From the NCBI GenBank assembly GCA_017886645.1, contig JAGHJM010000043.1, positions 1-32,917 on the forward strand: a stretch of 32,917 bases of DNA, given 5' to 3'. The first letter of the stretch is position 1, and each line of letters opens with the position of its first letter. This document shows positions 25,258 to 32,917 of the stretch, piece by piece. Origin of the DNA: Clostridia bacterium (GTDB lineage: Bacteria; Bacillota; Clostridia; TANB77; CAG-508). Below the pieces are notes generated by a model. The model saw only the letters and a program-made list of their open reading frames with translations, was not told the origin of the DNA and made no database searches. A program made the translations under genes and the position numbers.

Positions 25258-25366
25258 GTTTAAAAATATTGACAAATTATCGATAAAAATTTAAATTATA
25301 TAATTAGCTGTGTATAAAATTTCCAATTTGTATTATAATAAGGAAAAAGTTAGAAAGGATGATAAA

Positions 25367-26617
25367 ATGGAAGGTATAATTATTCACAAAATAGAAACAA
25401 ATCAATTTAAAACTAATTTATATGCTGTTTTTTTAGCAATTCCTTTAAAGAGAGAAAATGTTACAAAAGATGCTTTACTAACGGCTGTATTAAGAAGGGG
25501 AACAGAAAATATAAAATCACAGGATGAAATTAGTAAAAGACTAGAAGAAATGTATGGAGCAAGTTTTGACTGTGGTATAGAAAAAACAGGAGATAATCAT
25601 ATAATAAAATTTTATTTAGAAGCTTTAAATGAAGAGTTTTTGCCAGAAAAAGAAAATTTTACACAAAAGTGCATAGAAATATTGTTAGATATAGTTACAA
25701 ATCCATTAGTAGAAAACGGTGGATTTATAGAAGAATATGTAAATGGAGAAAAAGAAAATTTAAAACAAATAATAAATGGAAAAATAGATAATAAAACACG
25801 TTATGCATTAGATAGGTGTATAGAAGAAATGTTTAAGGAAAAACCTTATGGATTATATAAATATGGATATATAGAGGATTTGGAAAGAATAACTCCACAA
25901 AGTTTATATGCCTATTATACAGAGCTTATTCAAAAATGTAAAATAGATATATATTATTCTGGAATATTTACAAATAATGATGTAGAGAAAATTATTATAG
26001 AAAAACTAAAAAAACAAGAAATACAAGCAAGAACGCCAGTATATATAATAAATAATGAAACAACAGAAATAAAAGAACAGTGTGATACTAAAAATATAAA
26101 TGAAAGTATGGATATAACACAAGGAAAATTAGTATTAGGATTAGATATAAATAATAATGAAAAAGATTCTAGATTTATAGCATCTGTTTATAATGCAATA
26201 TTAGGGGGAGGAGCAAATTCAAAATTATTCCAAAATGTAAGAGAGAAAAATAGTTTGGCATATACAGCAAGTTCTAGCTATATAAGAACAAAAAATGTAA
26301 TATTAGTGTATTGCGGAATAGATATAGAAAATTATGACAAAGCATTAAAAACTATAAAAGAACAATTAGATGATATGAAAGAAGGAAAATTTACTAAAGA
26401 AGATATAGAGGATGCTAAAAAATTAATAATATCAAGCATTAAAAGTATATCTGCTGAGCAAGATACAGAAATAACATATAATTATGGACAAGAACTATCA
26501 AAAGAATATTTAAAATTAGAAGATTATGAAAAAAAGGTTACAGAAGTAAGCAAAGAGCAGATAATAAATTTAGCAAATACAATTTCTATTAATACAATTT
26601 ACTTTTTAAAAAAATAG
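25367..26617 (+). CDS. M16 family peptidase-like protein (YmfF-like; likely inactive partner)
   Basis: Pairs with downstream M16 protein; no HxxEH motif; GGGANSKLFQNVREKNSLAYTASSSY typical M16 C-terminal region; RBS AAAGGA before ATG 25367. Confidence 0.9.
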   Translation: MEGIIIHKIETNQFKTNLYAVFLAIPLKRENVTKDALLTAVLRRGTENIKSQDEISKRLEEMYGASFDCGIEKTGDNHIIKFYLEALNEEFLPEKENFTQKCIEILLDIVTNPLVENGGFIEEYVNGEKENLKQIINGKIDNKTRYALDRCIEEMFKEKPYGLYKYGYIEDLERITPQSLYAYYTELIQKCKIDIYYSGIFTNNDVEKIIIEKLKKQEIQARTPVYIINNETTEIKEQCDTKNINESMDITQGKLVLGLDINNNEKDSRFIASVYNAILGGGANSKLFQNVREKNSLAYTASSSYIRTKNVILVYCGIDIENYDKALKTIKEQLDDMKEGKFTKEDIEDAKKLIISSIKSISAEQDTEITYNYGQELSKEYLKLEDYEKKVTEVSKEQIINLANTISINTIYFLKK

Positions 26618-26645
26618 AATACAATCAAGAAGGGAGACAAGTTAT

Positions 26646-27929
26646 ATGAAAATAATAGAAAGTTCCAAAATAAAAGAAAAGGCATATATAGAAAAATTAG
26701 AAAATGGAATGGAAATAATTATAATTCCAAAAAAAGATGCTATTAAAAAATATATAATATGGGGAACACATTTTGGATCAATAGATAATCATTTTATTAT
26801 GCCAAAAACTGGTGAAGAAGTATATATTCCTGATGGAGTAGCACATTTTTTAGAACATAAAATGTTTGAACAACCAGATGGAACAAATAGTTTAGACACA
26901 TTAATGGCATTAGGTATAGATGCAAATGCATATACAACAAATGACCATACAGCATATTTATTTGAATGTACAGATAATTTTTACGAAGGTTTAGATGAAT
27001 TAATGAATTATGTTCAACATCCATATTTTACAGAAGAAAATGTGGAAAAGGAAAAAGGAATAATTGGACAAGAAATTGGTATGTATGATGATGACCCTGG
27101 CTGGAGACTATATATGAATGCTATGGATTGCATGTATAAAGAAAATCCTATAAAAATTGATATAGCAGGAACTGTTGAATCAATAGCTAAGATAACTCCA
27201 GATGTTTTGTATAAATGTTATAGTACTTTTTATAACCCATCAAATATGACGATGGTGGTATGTGGAGATTTTGATCCAGAGAAAATTATAAATGAAATAA
27301 AAAACAGATTATTACCAAAAGAAAATCAAGGAGAAATTAAAAGAATTTATACTGGAAAAGAAGATGGAATTAATAAAAAATTAAAAGAAGAAAATATGGA
27401 AGTAAGTAATCCAATATATTTAATAGGATATAAAGATGAACAAAATAATTCTGATAATAGAAATATTGTAAAAAAACATATAGCAATAGAAATAATATTA
27501 AATATGGCAATAGGAAAAAGCTCTAAATTGTATAAGAAACTATATGAAGAAGGTATAATATTAGGAGAACCAGATTTTGACTATGAATTTAGCAATCAAT
27601 ATGCCCATGTTATTATTTCTGGACAATCTAAAAATCCAAAAAAAATTTATGAAAGTTTAACAAATCAGATAAAAGAATTTATAGAAGAAGGACTTGATGA
27701 AGAACATTTTAATAGAATAAAAAGAAAAATATATGGAGACTATGCAATAGAATATAATAGTGTAGCAGACATAGCAAAAATGTTTTTAGCAGATAAAATG
27801 AAGGGAATAAATAGTTTTGACTACATGGAAGAATTTAATACAGTAACAAAGGAATATACAGAAGAAGTTTTAAAAGAAGTATTTAATGAAGAAAGAGAAA
27901 TTTTATCTATAGTAAACCCTAAAAAATAG
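26646..27929 (+). CDS. M16 family zinc metallopeptidase (YmfH-like)
   Basis: PDGVAHFLEHKMFEQPDGTNSLDTLMALGIDANAYTT (HxxEH). Confidence 0.95.
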   Translation: MKIIESSKIKEKAYIEKLENGMEIIIIPKKDAIKKYIIWGTHFGSIDNHFIMPKTGEEVYIPDGVAHFLEHKMFEQPDGTNSLDTLMALGIDANAYTTNDHTAYLFECTDNFYEGLDELMNYVQHPYFTEENVEKEKGIIGQEIGMYDDDPGWRLYMNAMDCMYKENPIKIDIAGTVESIAKITPDVLYKCYSTFYNPSNMTMVVCGDFDPEKIINEIKNRLLPKENQGEIKRIYTGKEDGINKKLKEENMEVSNPIYLIGYKDEQNNSDNRNIVKKHIAIEIILNMAIGKSSKLYKKLYEEGIILGEPDFDYEFSNQYAHVIISGQSKNPKKIYESLTNQIKEFIEEGLDEEHFNRIKRKIYGDYAIEYNSVADIAKMFLADKMKGINSFDYMEEFNTVTKEYTEEVLKEVFNEEREILSIVNPKK

Positions 27930-28877: not shown

Positions 28878-29084
28878 ATGTTAAATGATGAGATTTGTAA
28901 ATTAAGAGAAAAATTAAACGAAAGTATAATCAACAACGAAGACTATAGTATTACATACAAAATCAGTGTAGAACTAGATGAATTAATAGCACAATACTAC
29001 AGAACTACAATAACGATAAAACCAAAGAATAAGAAAAATACAAGAAGAATAAAAGACATGCAAAAATTTTTCTTAGATAAATAA
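28878..29084 (+). CDS. Spo0E-like aspartyl-phosphate phosphatase family protein
   Basis: 68 aa; KLREKLNESI...SVELDELIAQYY matches the Spo0E SxxLDxLI motif. Confidence 0.8.
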   Translation: MLNDEICKLREKLNESIINNEDYSITYKISVELDELIAQYYRTTITIKPKNKKNTRRIKDMQKFFLDK

Positions 29085-29086
29085 AT

Positions 29087-29133
29087 ACATAAAAAAAGAA
29101 ATTAAGATTATTACTTAATTTCTTTTTTTATGT
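29087..29133. terminator. Intrinsic terminator
   Basis: ACATAAAAAAAGAAATTAAG ATTATTA CTTAATTTCTTTTTTTATGT, 20-bp perfect stem. Confidence 0.88.
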
Positions 29134-29295: not shown

Positions 29296-29682
29296 ATGGT
29301 AAATAAAGCGTTAAAATTAATTGGTAAAATAGTAATATTAATAATTGTGTGTGCAATTATATTTTCTTTATCTACGGTAAATGCTCAAGGAGGAATTAAC
29401 GTAAATGATTATAATCCAGGAGGAACTCCAAGCATTCCCACTGAAGTAACAGATAAAATAAATCCAATAGTTGGAGTTATAAGCTTAATAGGTATGATTA
29501 CATCAGTTCTAGTGCTTGTAATTTTAGGTATAAAATATATGATAGGAAGTGTAGAAGAAAAAGCAGAATACAAAAAAAGTATGATTCCATACTTAATTGG
29601 TGCAGTAATGGTATTTTCAATATCTACATTTTTGACAATAATTATGAATATGACAAATAATTTATTTACAACAACCCCTTGA
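29296..29682 (+). CDS. VirB2/TrbC-like T4SS pilin, paralogue A
   Basis: Signal peptide plus two TM; LGIKYMIGSVEEKAEYKKSMIPYLIGAVMVF. Confidence 0.82.
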   Translation: MVNKALKLIGKIVILIIVCAIIFSLSTVNAQGGINVNDYNPGGTPSIPTEVTDKINPIVGVISLIGMITSVLVLVILGIKYMIGSVEEKAEYKKSMIPYLIGAVMVFSISTFLTIIMNMTNNLFTTTP

Positions 29683-29725
29683 AAATACAAGAAAAATGTA
29701 GTATATTAAAATAAAGGGGGAAAAT

Positions 29726-30115
29726 ATGAAAAAAAATGTAATTATAAAGTTAATATCTATAATAATAATATTTTTAGTAATTTTTTCTCCAATAAGTACT
29801 GTACAAGCTAGTGGAATAACTAATTTAATAGGTAGTGGAGACAATTTTATTAGCACAGGAGAGAACCAAACTACACCAATTAACGATACTAATATGAGGG
29901 ATTTATCAAATGACTTATATAATATTTTATTAGTTGTTGGAATTGTAATTGCATTAATAATAGGAATGATTTTAGGAATTCAGTTTATGACAGGAAGTGT
30001 AGAACAAAAAGCAAAAGTAAAAGATTCTTTAATTCCATATGTCGCAGGATGCGTAGTTATATTTGGTGCATTTGGTATATGGAAATTAGTAGTAACACTT
30101 ATGCAAGGCATATAA
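29726..30115 (+). CDS. VirB2/TrbC-like T4SS pilin, paralogue B (divergent)
   Basis: Signal peptide; LGIQFMTGSVEQKAKVKDSLIPYVAGCVVIFGAFGIWKLV. Confidence 0.8.
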   Translation: MKKNVIIKLISIIIIFLVIFSPISTVQASGITNLIGSGDNFISTGENQTTPINDTNMRDLSNDLYNILLVVGIVIALIIGMILGIQFMTGSVEQKAKVKDSLIPYVAGCVVIFGAFGIWKLVVTLMQGI

Positions 30116-30177
30116 ATTTGATTTTATAATTATCTTAACATAGATAAAAATATATAAATAAAAAGGGAGGAAACTAA

Positions 30178-30558
30178 ATGAGCAACATAACAAAAAGAAA
30201 TAGAATGGTGAAAATATTTTCTGCAATTTTAGTAATAAGCATGGTTTTATTTACAGCTAATATGGTTTTTGCAAGTGACCCATTTGATAATATTAAACCA
30301 GACTACCATGGTACAAATGGAATTACTGATATTGGTAATACAGTAATAGGAATAGTTACAGTAATAGGAATGGTTGCATCTGTTTTGGTATTAGTAGTTT
30401 TAGGTATTAAATATATGATGGGTAGTGCAGAAGAAAAAGCAGAATACAAAAAAACAATGATACCATACTTAATTGGTGCAATATTAGTATTTGCTGCATC
30501 AGCAATAGCAGGAATTATTAGAAATATTGCAACTCAAGGATTTAATAATACACCATAG
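30178..30558 (+). CDS. VirB2/TrbC-like T4SS pilin, paralogue C
   Basis: Signal peptide; LGIKYMMGSAEEKAEYKKTMIPYLIGAILVFAASAIAGI, closest to paralogue A. Confidence 0.82.
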   Translation: MSNITKRNRMVKIFSAILVISMVLFTANMVFASDPFDNIKPDYHGTNGITDIGNTVIGIVTVIGMVASVLVLVVLGIKYMMGSAEEKAEYKKTMIPYLIGAILVFAASAIAGIIRNIATQGFNNTP

Positions 30559-30590: not shown

Positions 30591-30620
30591 AAAAGTGCAT
30601 GTCAATGCACTTTTTTTTTA
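30591..30620 (+). terminator. Intrinsic terminator after pilin genes
   Basis: AAAAGTGCAT GTCA ATGCACTTTTTTTT. Confidence 0.88.
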
Positions 30621-30696
30621 TTTAGTATACCCTTTTTCTACATTTTTTGATATAATATAAAATAAGAATAAATGTAAACTTACGAAGGAGGAAAAT

Positions 30697-31044
30697 ATGG
30701 GAACATACAATTTACCCAGAAATGTTAAAGGTGAAGGTAGAATTCTATTCATTTTTACAGGAAAAAGCTTTATATATGCAATAGCTGGAGGAGGGATAGG
30801 CCTTATTTTCTACCTTATATTTGCTGCAATGGGATTAAATATGGTAGGTGTTATTATAACAGTTTTATTTGCAGCAATAGGATTCGCGATAGGAACATTT
30901 AAAATGCCAGAAATTTCAGGTTTAGCATTCACAAAAAAAGTGGGCGGAGAAAACTTAGATGATATAATAAAAAGAGCCATAAAATTTAAAACAAAAGGAA
31001 GAAAAATATACATATATAAGGAGGGAAAAAATAATGCTAAATAG
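30697..31044 (+). CDS. PrgI family / VirB3-like T4SS inner-membrane protein
   Basis: YNLPRNVKGEGRILFIFTGKSFIYAIAGGGIGLIFYLIF...MPEISGLAFTKKVGGENLDDIIKRAIKF; position before VirB4-like genes. Confidence 0.78.
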   Translation: MGTYNLPRNVKGEGRILFIFTGKSFIYAIAGGGIGLIFYLIFAAMGLNMVGVIITVLFAAIGFAIGTFKMPEISGLAFTKKVGGENLDDIIKRAIKFKTKGRKIYIYKEGKNNAK

Positions 31045-32260
31045 TGTAAATACAGTTACAACAATATTAATAATAGCCTTAGTAGTAATGGTAGTCTTAT
31101 TAGGAATTTTAGCAATTGTATATTTTACTTCTAAAGCAAAAGAGGAAAAAGAAAATAAACCAAATAGTAGTACTGGAAAAGCAGGAACAACAAGTAAAGC
31201 AACAAAATCTTATTCAGTAGAATCTGTATTTGATTTTATGGAATTTGATAAAATTGAAGATAATATGATTTCACAAAAAAATGGTGAAAGATACATAATG
31301 GTGGTAGAATGCCAAGGTGTAAATTATGATTTAATGTCAGAAGTAGAAAAAAATGCAGTGGAAGAAGGATTTATACAATTTTTAAATACTTTAAGACATC
31401 CTATACAAATATATACACAAACAAGAACTATCAACTTAGAAAGTAGTATTCAAACTTATAAAGAAAAAGTACAAGAGCTAGAAGATAGATTAGATAGGCA
31501 AAGAATGCAATATCAAAGCATGGTTGATTCAGGAAAATATTCTAGGCAACAATTAGATCAAGCATATTATGAATTAACTAAACAAACTAATTTATGTGAA
31601 TATGGAAAAGACATTATATATAATACAGAAAAAATGAGTTTAAATAAAAATGTATTAAATAAAAAATATTACATAGTAATTCCATATTATACAGCAGATT
31701 TAGGGCAAAATGAATTTGATAAAGAAGAAAAGAAAAACTTGGCATTTTCAGAGTTATATACAAGGGCGCAATCAGTTATAAGAACATTGTCTGTTTGTGG
31801 AATAAATGCAGGAATATTAGACTCAAATGGATTAGTAGACTTACTATATGTTGCTTATAATAGAGATGATGCAGAAGTATATGGACTAGATAAAGCTATT
31901 CAAGCGGGATATGATGAACTATATTCAACTGCACCAGATGTATTAGATAAGAAAATGAGAACACTAGATGCAAAAATAGAACAAGAAGCATTTAAGAAAG
32001 CTAATGAAGCAGTTATAGAAGCAAAATCTAGAAAAGAAAAAGCTTTGGACAGAAAAGAAGCTAGAATGGATGACTTAATTGCACAGATGGCACAAATTAT
32101 TATAGATGAAAATAGAGCAGCAATAGGAAATAAAGTAGCAAATGATGCTAAAGAAATAGTTAAAGAAGAAAATGCAAAGAGAAAACAAGAAAAAGGAGGT
32201 ACAAAAGAGGATGAGCAAAAAGAAAAACAAACAAGAAGTAGAACTACAAGGACAGCGTAA
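31034..32260 (+). CDS. Membrane-anchored protein resembling the VirB4/TraC N-terminal domain, no Walker motifs
   Basis: One N-terminal TM then VFDFMEFDKIEDNMISQKNGERYIMVVECQGVNYDLMSEVEKNAVEEGFIQFLNTLRHPIQIYTQTRTINLE; coiled-coil and charged C-terminus. Confidence 0.65.
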   Translation: MLNSVNTVTTILIIALVVMVVLLGILAIVYFTSKAKEEKENKPNSSTGKAGTTSKATKSYSVESVFDFMEFDKIEDNMISQKNGERYIMVVECQGVNYDLMSEVEKNAVEEGFIQFLNTLRHPIQIYTQTRTINLESSIQTYKEKVQELEDRLDRQRMQYQSMVDSGKYSRQQLDQAYYELTKQTNLCEYGKDIIYNTEKMSLNKNVLNKKYYIVIPYYTADLGQNEFDKEEKKNLAFSELYTRAQSVIRTLSVCGINAGILDSNGLVDLLYVAYNRDDAEVYGLDKAIQAGYDELYSTAPDVLDKKMRTLDAKIEQEAFKKANEAVIEAKSRKEKALDRKEARMDDLIAQMAQIIIDENRAAIGNKVANDAKEIVKEENAKRKQEKGGTKEDEQKEKQTRSRTTRTA

Positions 32261-32917
32261 TGATTATACAAAACCAGATGAATATCAAATATTAAAAAAG
32301 AAAACTATAAAAGAATTAATTGCACCATCTGGAATAGACGCAAGTAATATTGATCACTTAGAAATAATATCAAATGTTACTAGATATGCAAGAAGCTTTT
32401 TTGTATCAGCTTTACCAAGAATGTGTACATTCCCAGAATTGTTTAGAGATATGTATATGTTTGGAGATATAAATACATCTATTTATATAAATCCAATTTT
32501 AGAGTCAAAATCACAAAATGATTTAAATAGAACCATTAATGAATTGGAAACAGAAAGAATTGTTGCAGCAGATAAGGGGAATATAAATAGAGAAAGTAAT
32601 TTAGCACAAAAAAGAATGGAAGCAGAACAGCTAAGAGATGAAATTGCCGCAGGATACAATAAATTATATGAAGCTTCTATAGTTTCAACATTATTTGCAT
32701 ATAGCTTAGAAGATTTAAACAAATTTACTAAATTACTATCAACTGAAGTTTCCAAATCATTAGTAGGTATAAAAACAGCATGGGGAATGCAAGAAGATGC
32801 ATTCAAATCAAACTTACCACTAATGGAAGATAAAATTAAAAAAACACATACATTTGACCGTAGGTCCATGGGAACAGTTTTCCCATTTACTACATCAGAA
32901 GTAGGACATCCAACAGG
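32211..32917 (+). CDS. VirB4/TraC-like T4SS ATPase, N-terminal part, truncated by window end (not in ORF track)
   Basis: AAAGGAGGT RBS; open to the window end; MSKKKNKQEVELQGQRNDYTKPDEYQILKKKTIKELIAPSGIDASNIDHLEIISNVTRYARSFFVSALPRMCTFPELFRDMYMFGDINTSIYINPI...FDRRSMGTVFPFTTSEVGHPTG typical of the VirB4 family upstream of Walker A. Confidence 0.85.
   Translation, partial: MSKKKNKQEVELQGQRNDYTKPDEYQILKKKTIKELIAPSGIDASNIDHLEIISNVTRYARSFFVSALPRMCTFPELFRDMYMFGDINTSIYINPILESKSQNDLNRTINELETERIVAADKGNINRESNLAQKRMEAEQLRDEIAAGYNKLYEASIVSTLFAYSLEDLNKFTKLLSTEVSKSLVGIKTAWGMQEDAFKSNLPLMEDKIKKTHTFDRRSMGTVFPFTTSEVGHPT

Follow-up and report, generated by a model that had tools for sequence, protein, structure and literature searches.

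A conserved trio of divergent VirB2-like pilin genes beside a chromosomal type IV secretion system in an order of gut Clostridia

Introduction

The pilin VirB2 of type IV secretion systems (T4SS) forms a membrane hairpin after the removal of its signal peptide and is later extracted, and the diderm systems with the pilins VirB2, TrwL or TraA, such as those of R388 and Agrobacterium, have as a rule one pilin per system. According to a 2025 review, VirB2 pilins are absent from the Gram-positive T4SS apart from those of Patescibacteria (PMC12857230), in which arrays of 2-11 divergent pilins, one of them essential, have been described, including the six-pilin VirB2-like array of Southlakia epibionticum (PMC12102498, PMC12857230). 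Several tandem pilin genes in one T4SS are also found in the Trw system of Bartonella and the VirB2 system of Anaplasma, whose arrays are read as surface-variation copies (cited in PMC12102498). The Mbov_0395 family pilin-like protein (NF045849) of mycoplasma integrative conjugative elements (ICEs) belongs to the same hairpin family, but to a mobile-element context.

The window analysed here is an entire contig (JAGHJM010000043.1, 32,917 nucleotides) of a 1.46 Mb draft genome of a Clostridia bacterium (assembly GCA_017886645.1; GTDB lineage Clostridia; TANB77; CAG-508), which is 81% complete and consists of 116 contigs. The first-pass annotation of this DNA had proposed three tandem VirB2/TrbC-like pilins near the contig end, with the remark that most T4SS encode one; this remark understated the contrast, as the Gram-positive T4SS are reported with none save those of Patescibacteria (PMC12857230, PMC12102498).

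The locus resembles the patescibacterial systems in a chromosomal monoderm-type T4SS with PrgI/VirB3, a TrsD-like protein, VirB4 and VirB6, mostly without a relaxase, and, by its layout, in the tandem divergent pilins of the T4SS_pilin/TrbC families beside virB4. However, it belongs to Clostridia (Bacillota), its pilins are a defined set of three whose orthologues recur from genus to genus, and it is distinguished by a VirB1-like CHAP hydrolase downstream, by a terminator conserved behind the array and by long ectodomains that sit mainly on one pilin class; the trio, terminator and ectodomains were not found described in the accessible portions of PMC12102498 and PMC12857230. With the pilins of R388 and Agrobacterium it shares the signal peptide and the two-helix hairpin, whose loop is short and charged, and one of its pilins passes the TrbC/VirB2 threshold, whereas the host is a monoderm and the direct similarity is weak. 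Unlike the Bartonella and Anaplasma arrays, it keeps class identity across genera.

Results

Three pilins of one hairpin family

The open reading frames A, B and C are intact and lie in tandem on the forward strand where the first-pass annotation had placed them, and each encodes a signal-like N-terminal segment and two hydrophobic segments by hydropathy. Pilin A (29296..29682; 128 aa) consists of a signal peptide (about residues 1-30), a short mature N-terminus with NDYNPGG and the hydrophobic hairpin segments at about 54-87 and 95-120; the genus and family consensus N-P-x-x-Y-K-P ahead of the hairpin is kept only in part, as Y-x-P-G. Pilin B (29726..30115; 129 aa) has a signal peptide (about 1-28), a helix at 31-47 around GSGDNFISTG, and a hairpin at 54-89 and 92-128 carrying the class motif IPYxxGCxVIFGAFGIWKL, while pilin C (30178..30558; 126 aa), the most conserved of the three, has a signal peptide (about 1-32) and the hairpin at 46-81 and 84-123. 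The arrangement of a signal peptide and a two-helix hairpin was found by hydropathy and in the AlphaFold2 models of B and C (pLDDT 81 for each). The shared motif reads LGIKYMIGSVEEKAEYKKSMIPYLIG in A, LGIQFMTGSVEQKAKVKDSLIPYVAG in B and LGIKYMMGSAEEKAEYKKTMIPYLIG in C.

All three proteins exceed the curated cut-off of Pfam T4SS_pilin (PF18895; 3.5e-11 for A, 1e-6 for B and 2.7e-10 for C). The TrbC/VirB2 family (PF04956) is passed only by C (1.5e-10), while A (26.6 bits) and B (26.2 bits) fall short of its cut-off of 27.9, and the Mbov_0395 family model NF045849 gave 1.8e-8, 3.5e-5 and 2.3e-8 for A, B and C, respectively, all below its cut-off. By BLASTP, A and C are 59% identical over 78 aa (E 2e-27), A and B 39% over 64 aa (E 1e-15), and B and C 30% over 123 aa (E 5e-16). 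Thus, the three consecutive signal-peptide proteins with two transmembrane segments and a common motif are real, the pairing of A with C and the divergence of B were read rightly at first pass, and the pilin assignment is borne out by Pfam, so that the homology to an unrelated family that had been named as a refuting outcome did not appear. The closest natural PDB sequence for C was the TrwL pilin of R388, at a non-significant E of 0.094. Foldseek searches with the monomer models of C and B returned no solved pilin and nothing at E<=0.001, a lone helical hairpin holding little signal. A search of Rfam gave no match. A fourth pilin match in the same genome (contig C33) was rejected as a false positive, being an FtsW/RodA-like protein.

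A putative separate transcription unit at a conserved chromosomal site

An intrinsic terminator (AAAAGTGCATGTCAATGCACTTTT-TTTTT; 30591..30622, +) stands between pilin C and the PrgI gene. Of the 44 A-B-C loci, 43 have such a terminator after C, in most cases with the pattern GTGCA...TGCAC-T(n), and none has one after A or after B (0/44 each), against 1% in shuffled sequence. Upstream, between a Spo0E-like gene and pilin A, a hairpin flanked on each side by A/T tracts (29087..29133, no strand assigned) divides the pilin unit from the preceding genes. The trio therefore looks like a transcription unit of its own ahead of the machine genes, since the terminator follows C and never A or B. A scan for sigma-70 promoters found sites no more frequent than in shuffles.

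Immediately upstream lies a syntenic gene for a Spo0E-like sporulation regulator (28878..29084, +; PF09388, 5.9e-10), which is not claimed as a part of the T4SS; it adjoins the pilins in most loci and is matched in 44 of the 57 loci longer than 15 kb, and a tie to Spo0A control may exist. Two M16-type peptidase genes (25310..27929, +), whose family was named by sequence inspection, are likewise no T4SS parts and mark the conserved chromosomal site, with homologues at 47 of the 57 VirB4 loci over 15 kb. At the other end of the window, positions 1-370 hold the end of a CRISPR-like array with six copies of a repeat that contains ACTTAGTAGCAAACTATAAC, at a spacing of 65-66 nt; the start of the contig cuts the array.

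The secretion machine

Downstream of the terminator follow a PrgI family (VirB3-like) protein (30697..31044, +; PF12666, 2e-7, above cut-off), a membrane-anchored protein of 408 aa resembling the VirB4 N-terminus and TrsD (31034..32260, +; NCBIfam VirB4_plasma 1.8e-8 and TrsD 5.6e-4, neither reaching its curated cut-off), and the N-terminal 235 residues of a VirB4 ATPase (32211..32917, +), which matches the genus VirB4 profile at E 1.4e-149 and the NCBIfam CD1110-family VirB4 in part (2.7e-17), and at which the contig ends. In a related genome (G018, locus L036) the cluster continues with a VirB4 of 658 aa (P-loop_TraG), a VirB6-like protein of 1022 aa with a weak TrbL-like match (TrbL_4, below cut-off) and a pilin-like segment, a membrane protein of 323 aa, a VirB1-like protein of 835 aa with a CHAP domain and a weak lysozyme match, and a protein of 451 aa with weak DUF3887/DUF4864 matches, which may by inference be VirB8-like; the last gene of the G027 cluster encodes a D,D-carboxypeptidase. 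VirB4, VirB3/PrgI, VirB6 and a cell-wall hydrolase thus stand in one cluster (L036), as in the monoderm PrgI/VirB4-type (MPF-FATA-like) systems, a label that rests on the cluster genes and not on a VirB4 phylogeny.

Among the annotated operon genes of the clusters in L036 and G027 there was no relaxase, and the relaxase family searched, PF03432, occurs in only 8 of the 30 genus genomes. The VirD4 coupling protein is encoded in 28 of the 30, and its gene in G022 stands apart from the cluster amid housekeeping genes; the link of VirD4 to the T4SS is not tight, because it persists in G011, which is without the three-pilin system. With PF03432 this rare, no relaxase in the operon and a fixed syntenic site, the locus does not have the features of an ICE: the T4SS is chromosomal, vertically inherited and fixed in its site. 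Because a relaxase is usually missing, its probable role is the transfer of proteins from cell to cell, or of DNA by some other route, in place of the conjugation of a mobile element.

Some further observations concern the same families. VirB6-like proteins contain a segment resembling the pilin hairpin (e.g., residues 190-274 of L036 11042-14107), which in several of them exceeds the PF18895 cut-off and reaches 82-93% probability in profile-profile comparison; platform and pilin possibly have a shared ancestry. Four tandem diverged copies of the VirB6-like gene (780-1000 aa) are present in G025 and G027 (L051 10020-19999, L055; L061), an arrangement that recalls Rickettsiales. A second T4SS-like locus (L064 7315-10804; G022:C1), near gyrA/dnaC-like genes, encodes a distant VirB4 (~630 aa), a TrwB-like coupling ATPase (574 aa), a T4SS_pilin-like protein of 118 aa and a multi-transmembrane protein of 294 aa; its VirB4-like matches are found in most genus genomes, also in G011.

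Age and conservation of the trio

Exactly three tandem pilins precede PrgI in all 26 genus genomes, among the 30 compared, in which the region is intact; in the other four, VirB4 is absent (G001, G003, G011) or cut by the contig end (G020). The genus tree of 78 pilins, labelled by gene order alone, recovers B as one clade (support 100/100) and C as another (98/96), with A not resolved from C. B likewise forms a single clade (100/100) in the family-wide tree, built from 112 pilins, in which A and C do not part cleanly; the A/B/C labels require three changes against the minimum possible of two and a shuffled mean of 53, although these labels were assigned by profiles, so that their agreement with the tree is not fully independent. 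The dN/dS ratio was 0.06-0.50 in each of the six pairs tested, for all three genes, which indicates purifying selection. The trio is thus not a matter of chance, being conserved in 26 genus genomes under such ratios.

Of 80 VirB4 loci taken without selection, a set that overlaps the genus genomes, 70 show the pilin region, and A, B and C are all present in 64 of these. Some lineages have four to six pilins, pilin duplications occurring in the family, and fused double-hairpin pilins are found in L127, L128, L131 and L138 and, elsewhere in the order, in further families. A loss of B in the apparent 'AC' loci was rejected: B is there a long protein beyond the 260-aa length filter, with the exception of L135, whose contig begins inside the pilin array. 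Across the class, the profile of pilin C matched 15 of 391 genomes at the sensitivity used, all in the order of the window, and PF18895 itself matches a few others, at no more than two places each. Among the related records are samples of goat colon, water deer reticulum and wild mice, which suggests a mostly animal-gut habitat. One whole order of gut Clostridia carries a T4SS with a dedicated multi-pilin operon at a fixed chromosomal place, with three pilins in the genus of the window.

As judged from the sequences, A, B and C are ancient, distinct paralogues and no strain-specific duplication. The phylogeny across related genomes that had been suggested at first pass thus returned old, diverged genes, B being a supported clade in genus and family alike, and the identical copies in this strain only, which were to refute the idea, were not met with; a recent triplication is rejected by the trees and by the distribution across genus and family.

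Ectodomains and the specialisation of B

Outside the genus of the window, B is often 310-550 aa long and has a signal peptide and an ectodomain of 170-430 aa ahead of the B helix and hairpin, which are conserved. In the unselected set B exceeds 200 aa in 12 of 66 loci, some being long for another reason, e.g., that of L123 with C-terminal zinc ribbons; further loci were chosen for a long B and hence give no frequency, and five of them repeat loci of the unselected set. Two genomes contain two long B each, and the ectodomain changes much faster than the hairpin, as these duplicates retain 93% (G171) and 94% (G380) identity in the hairpin against 27% and 39%, respectively, in the ectodomain. In L098 and L108 the ectodomain is on A instead, and B is short. 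In the long B ectodomains Pfam gave no convincing domain match beyond the pilin hairpin. The specialised subunits that had been proposed at first pass are supported for B in particular, by its 100/100 clade and the large ectodomains of sister genera. C-terminal zinc-ribbon-like CxxC pairs, which are odd for an exported subunit, were seen in some pilins (L123 7144-7794; L131 2409-2912 and 2916-3806; L128 414-1151).

Discussion

On balance, A, B and C are probably VirB2-like pilins with three distinct functions in one monoderm T4SS at a fixed chromosomal site, with C as the shaft and B at the tip or contact end; a division of labour among them is supported by their sequence evolution, while we infer the filament, its stoichiometry, the position at the tip and the substrate. 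By analogy with VirB2, each pilin would enter the cytoplasmic membrane as a hairpin once its signal peptide is removed, and the VirB4 ATPase would help to extract the pilins onto the VirB6 platform; the separate terminator-closed unit would allow an excess of pilin over the machine. C would most likely be the main shaft subunit. B would be a minor subunit with a specialised role, and its most likely place is the tip or contact end, since in sister genera the variable ectodomain of 170-430 aa is carried mainly by B. As B has no ectodomain in the genus of the window, the tip role of the B encoded here would be extrapolated from those genera. A would be a third, adapter-like subunit, able to assume the ectodomain role, as two lineages suggest, and the CHAP cell-wall hydrolase and VirD4, encoded elsewhere in the genome, would serve the machine.

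The main rival reading makes A, B and C the hairpin proteins of a membrane channel in a pilus-less T4SS, e.g., of a heteromeric ring on VirB6. Such a channel would agree with the known Gram-positive T4SS without VirB2 pili (PMC12857230), with the double-hairpin fusions, and with the pilin-like hairpin of the VirB6-like protein, so that a hairpin can serve as a membrane module. However, the pilin genes form a unit of their own, bounded by a terminator, ahead of the machine genes, their products have signal peptides, C exceeds the VirB2 profile cut-off, and the large ectodomains are most easily read as surface-exposed, so we consider this reading somewhat unlikely.

Pilin expansion for antigenic or host-surface variation, which is the reason given for pilin arrays elsewhere (PMC12102498), would suit the fast-varying B ectodomains with their duplications in G171 and G380 and the lineages with four to six pilins. 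It would, however, make the copies interchangeable, differing in exposed loops and with no fixed division of labour, and interchangeable copies would give copy-number turnover and species-wise clustering, against which stand the invariable number of three in all 26 intact genus loci, the single clade of B, the near-minimal number of label changes (three against two) and the single operon with its single terminator. For the whole trio it is largely refuted by the deep A/B/C orthology and seems quite improbable, but it could hold for the B ectodomain alone. A recent redundant tandem duplication, or an ordinary ICE happening to have three pilins, can hardly be credited: the tandem layout and the pilin and VirB6 duplications in the family would fit it, yet the orthology across genera, the purifying selection on each gene, the syntenic site by the M16 peptidases (47 of the 57 long loci) and the rarity of PF03432 (8 of the 30 genus genomes) oppose it, and the family-wide distribution already refutes it.

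Starting from three functionally distinct pilins, a further-reaching proposal may be offered tentatively, namely, that the order builds a composite VirB2-type pilus of at least three non-interchangeable subunits, in which B, and sometimes A, with its fast-diversifying receptor-binding ectodomain would be a pilin-fused tip adhesin, for a core cell-to-cell function and not for conjugation.

In the literature searched, no description of this T4SS in these Clostridia was found. Pilin arrays are already known in Patescibacteria, and what appears new is such an array in Clostridia, with an orthologous trio and with ectodomains mainly on one class. VirB2-like pilins are thus found genus- and family-wide in an order of Clostridia, in a mostly relaxase-less chromosomal T4SS, against the general absence from Gram-positive systems stated in the review (PMC12857230). 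The fixed orthologous trio makes it testable whether VirB2-type filaments may be built from several different subunits and whether one of them may serve as the contact tip.
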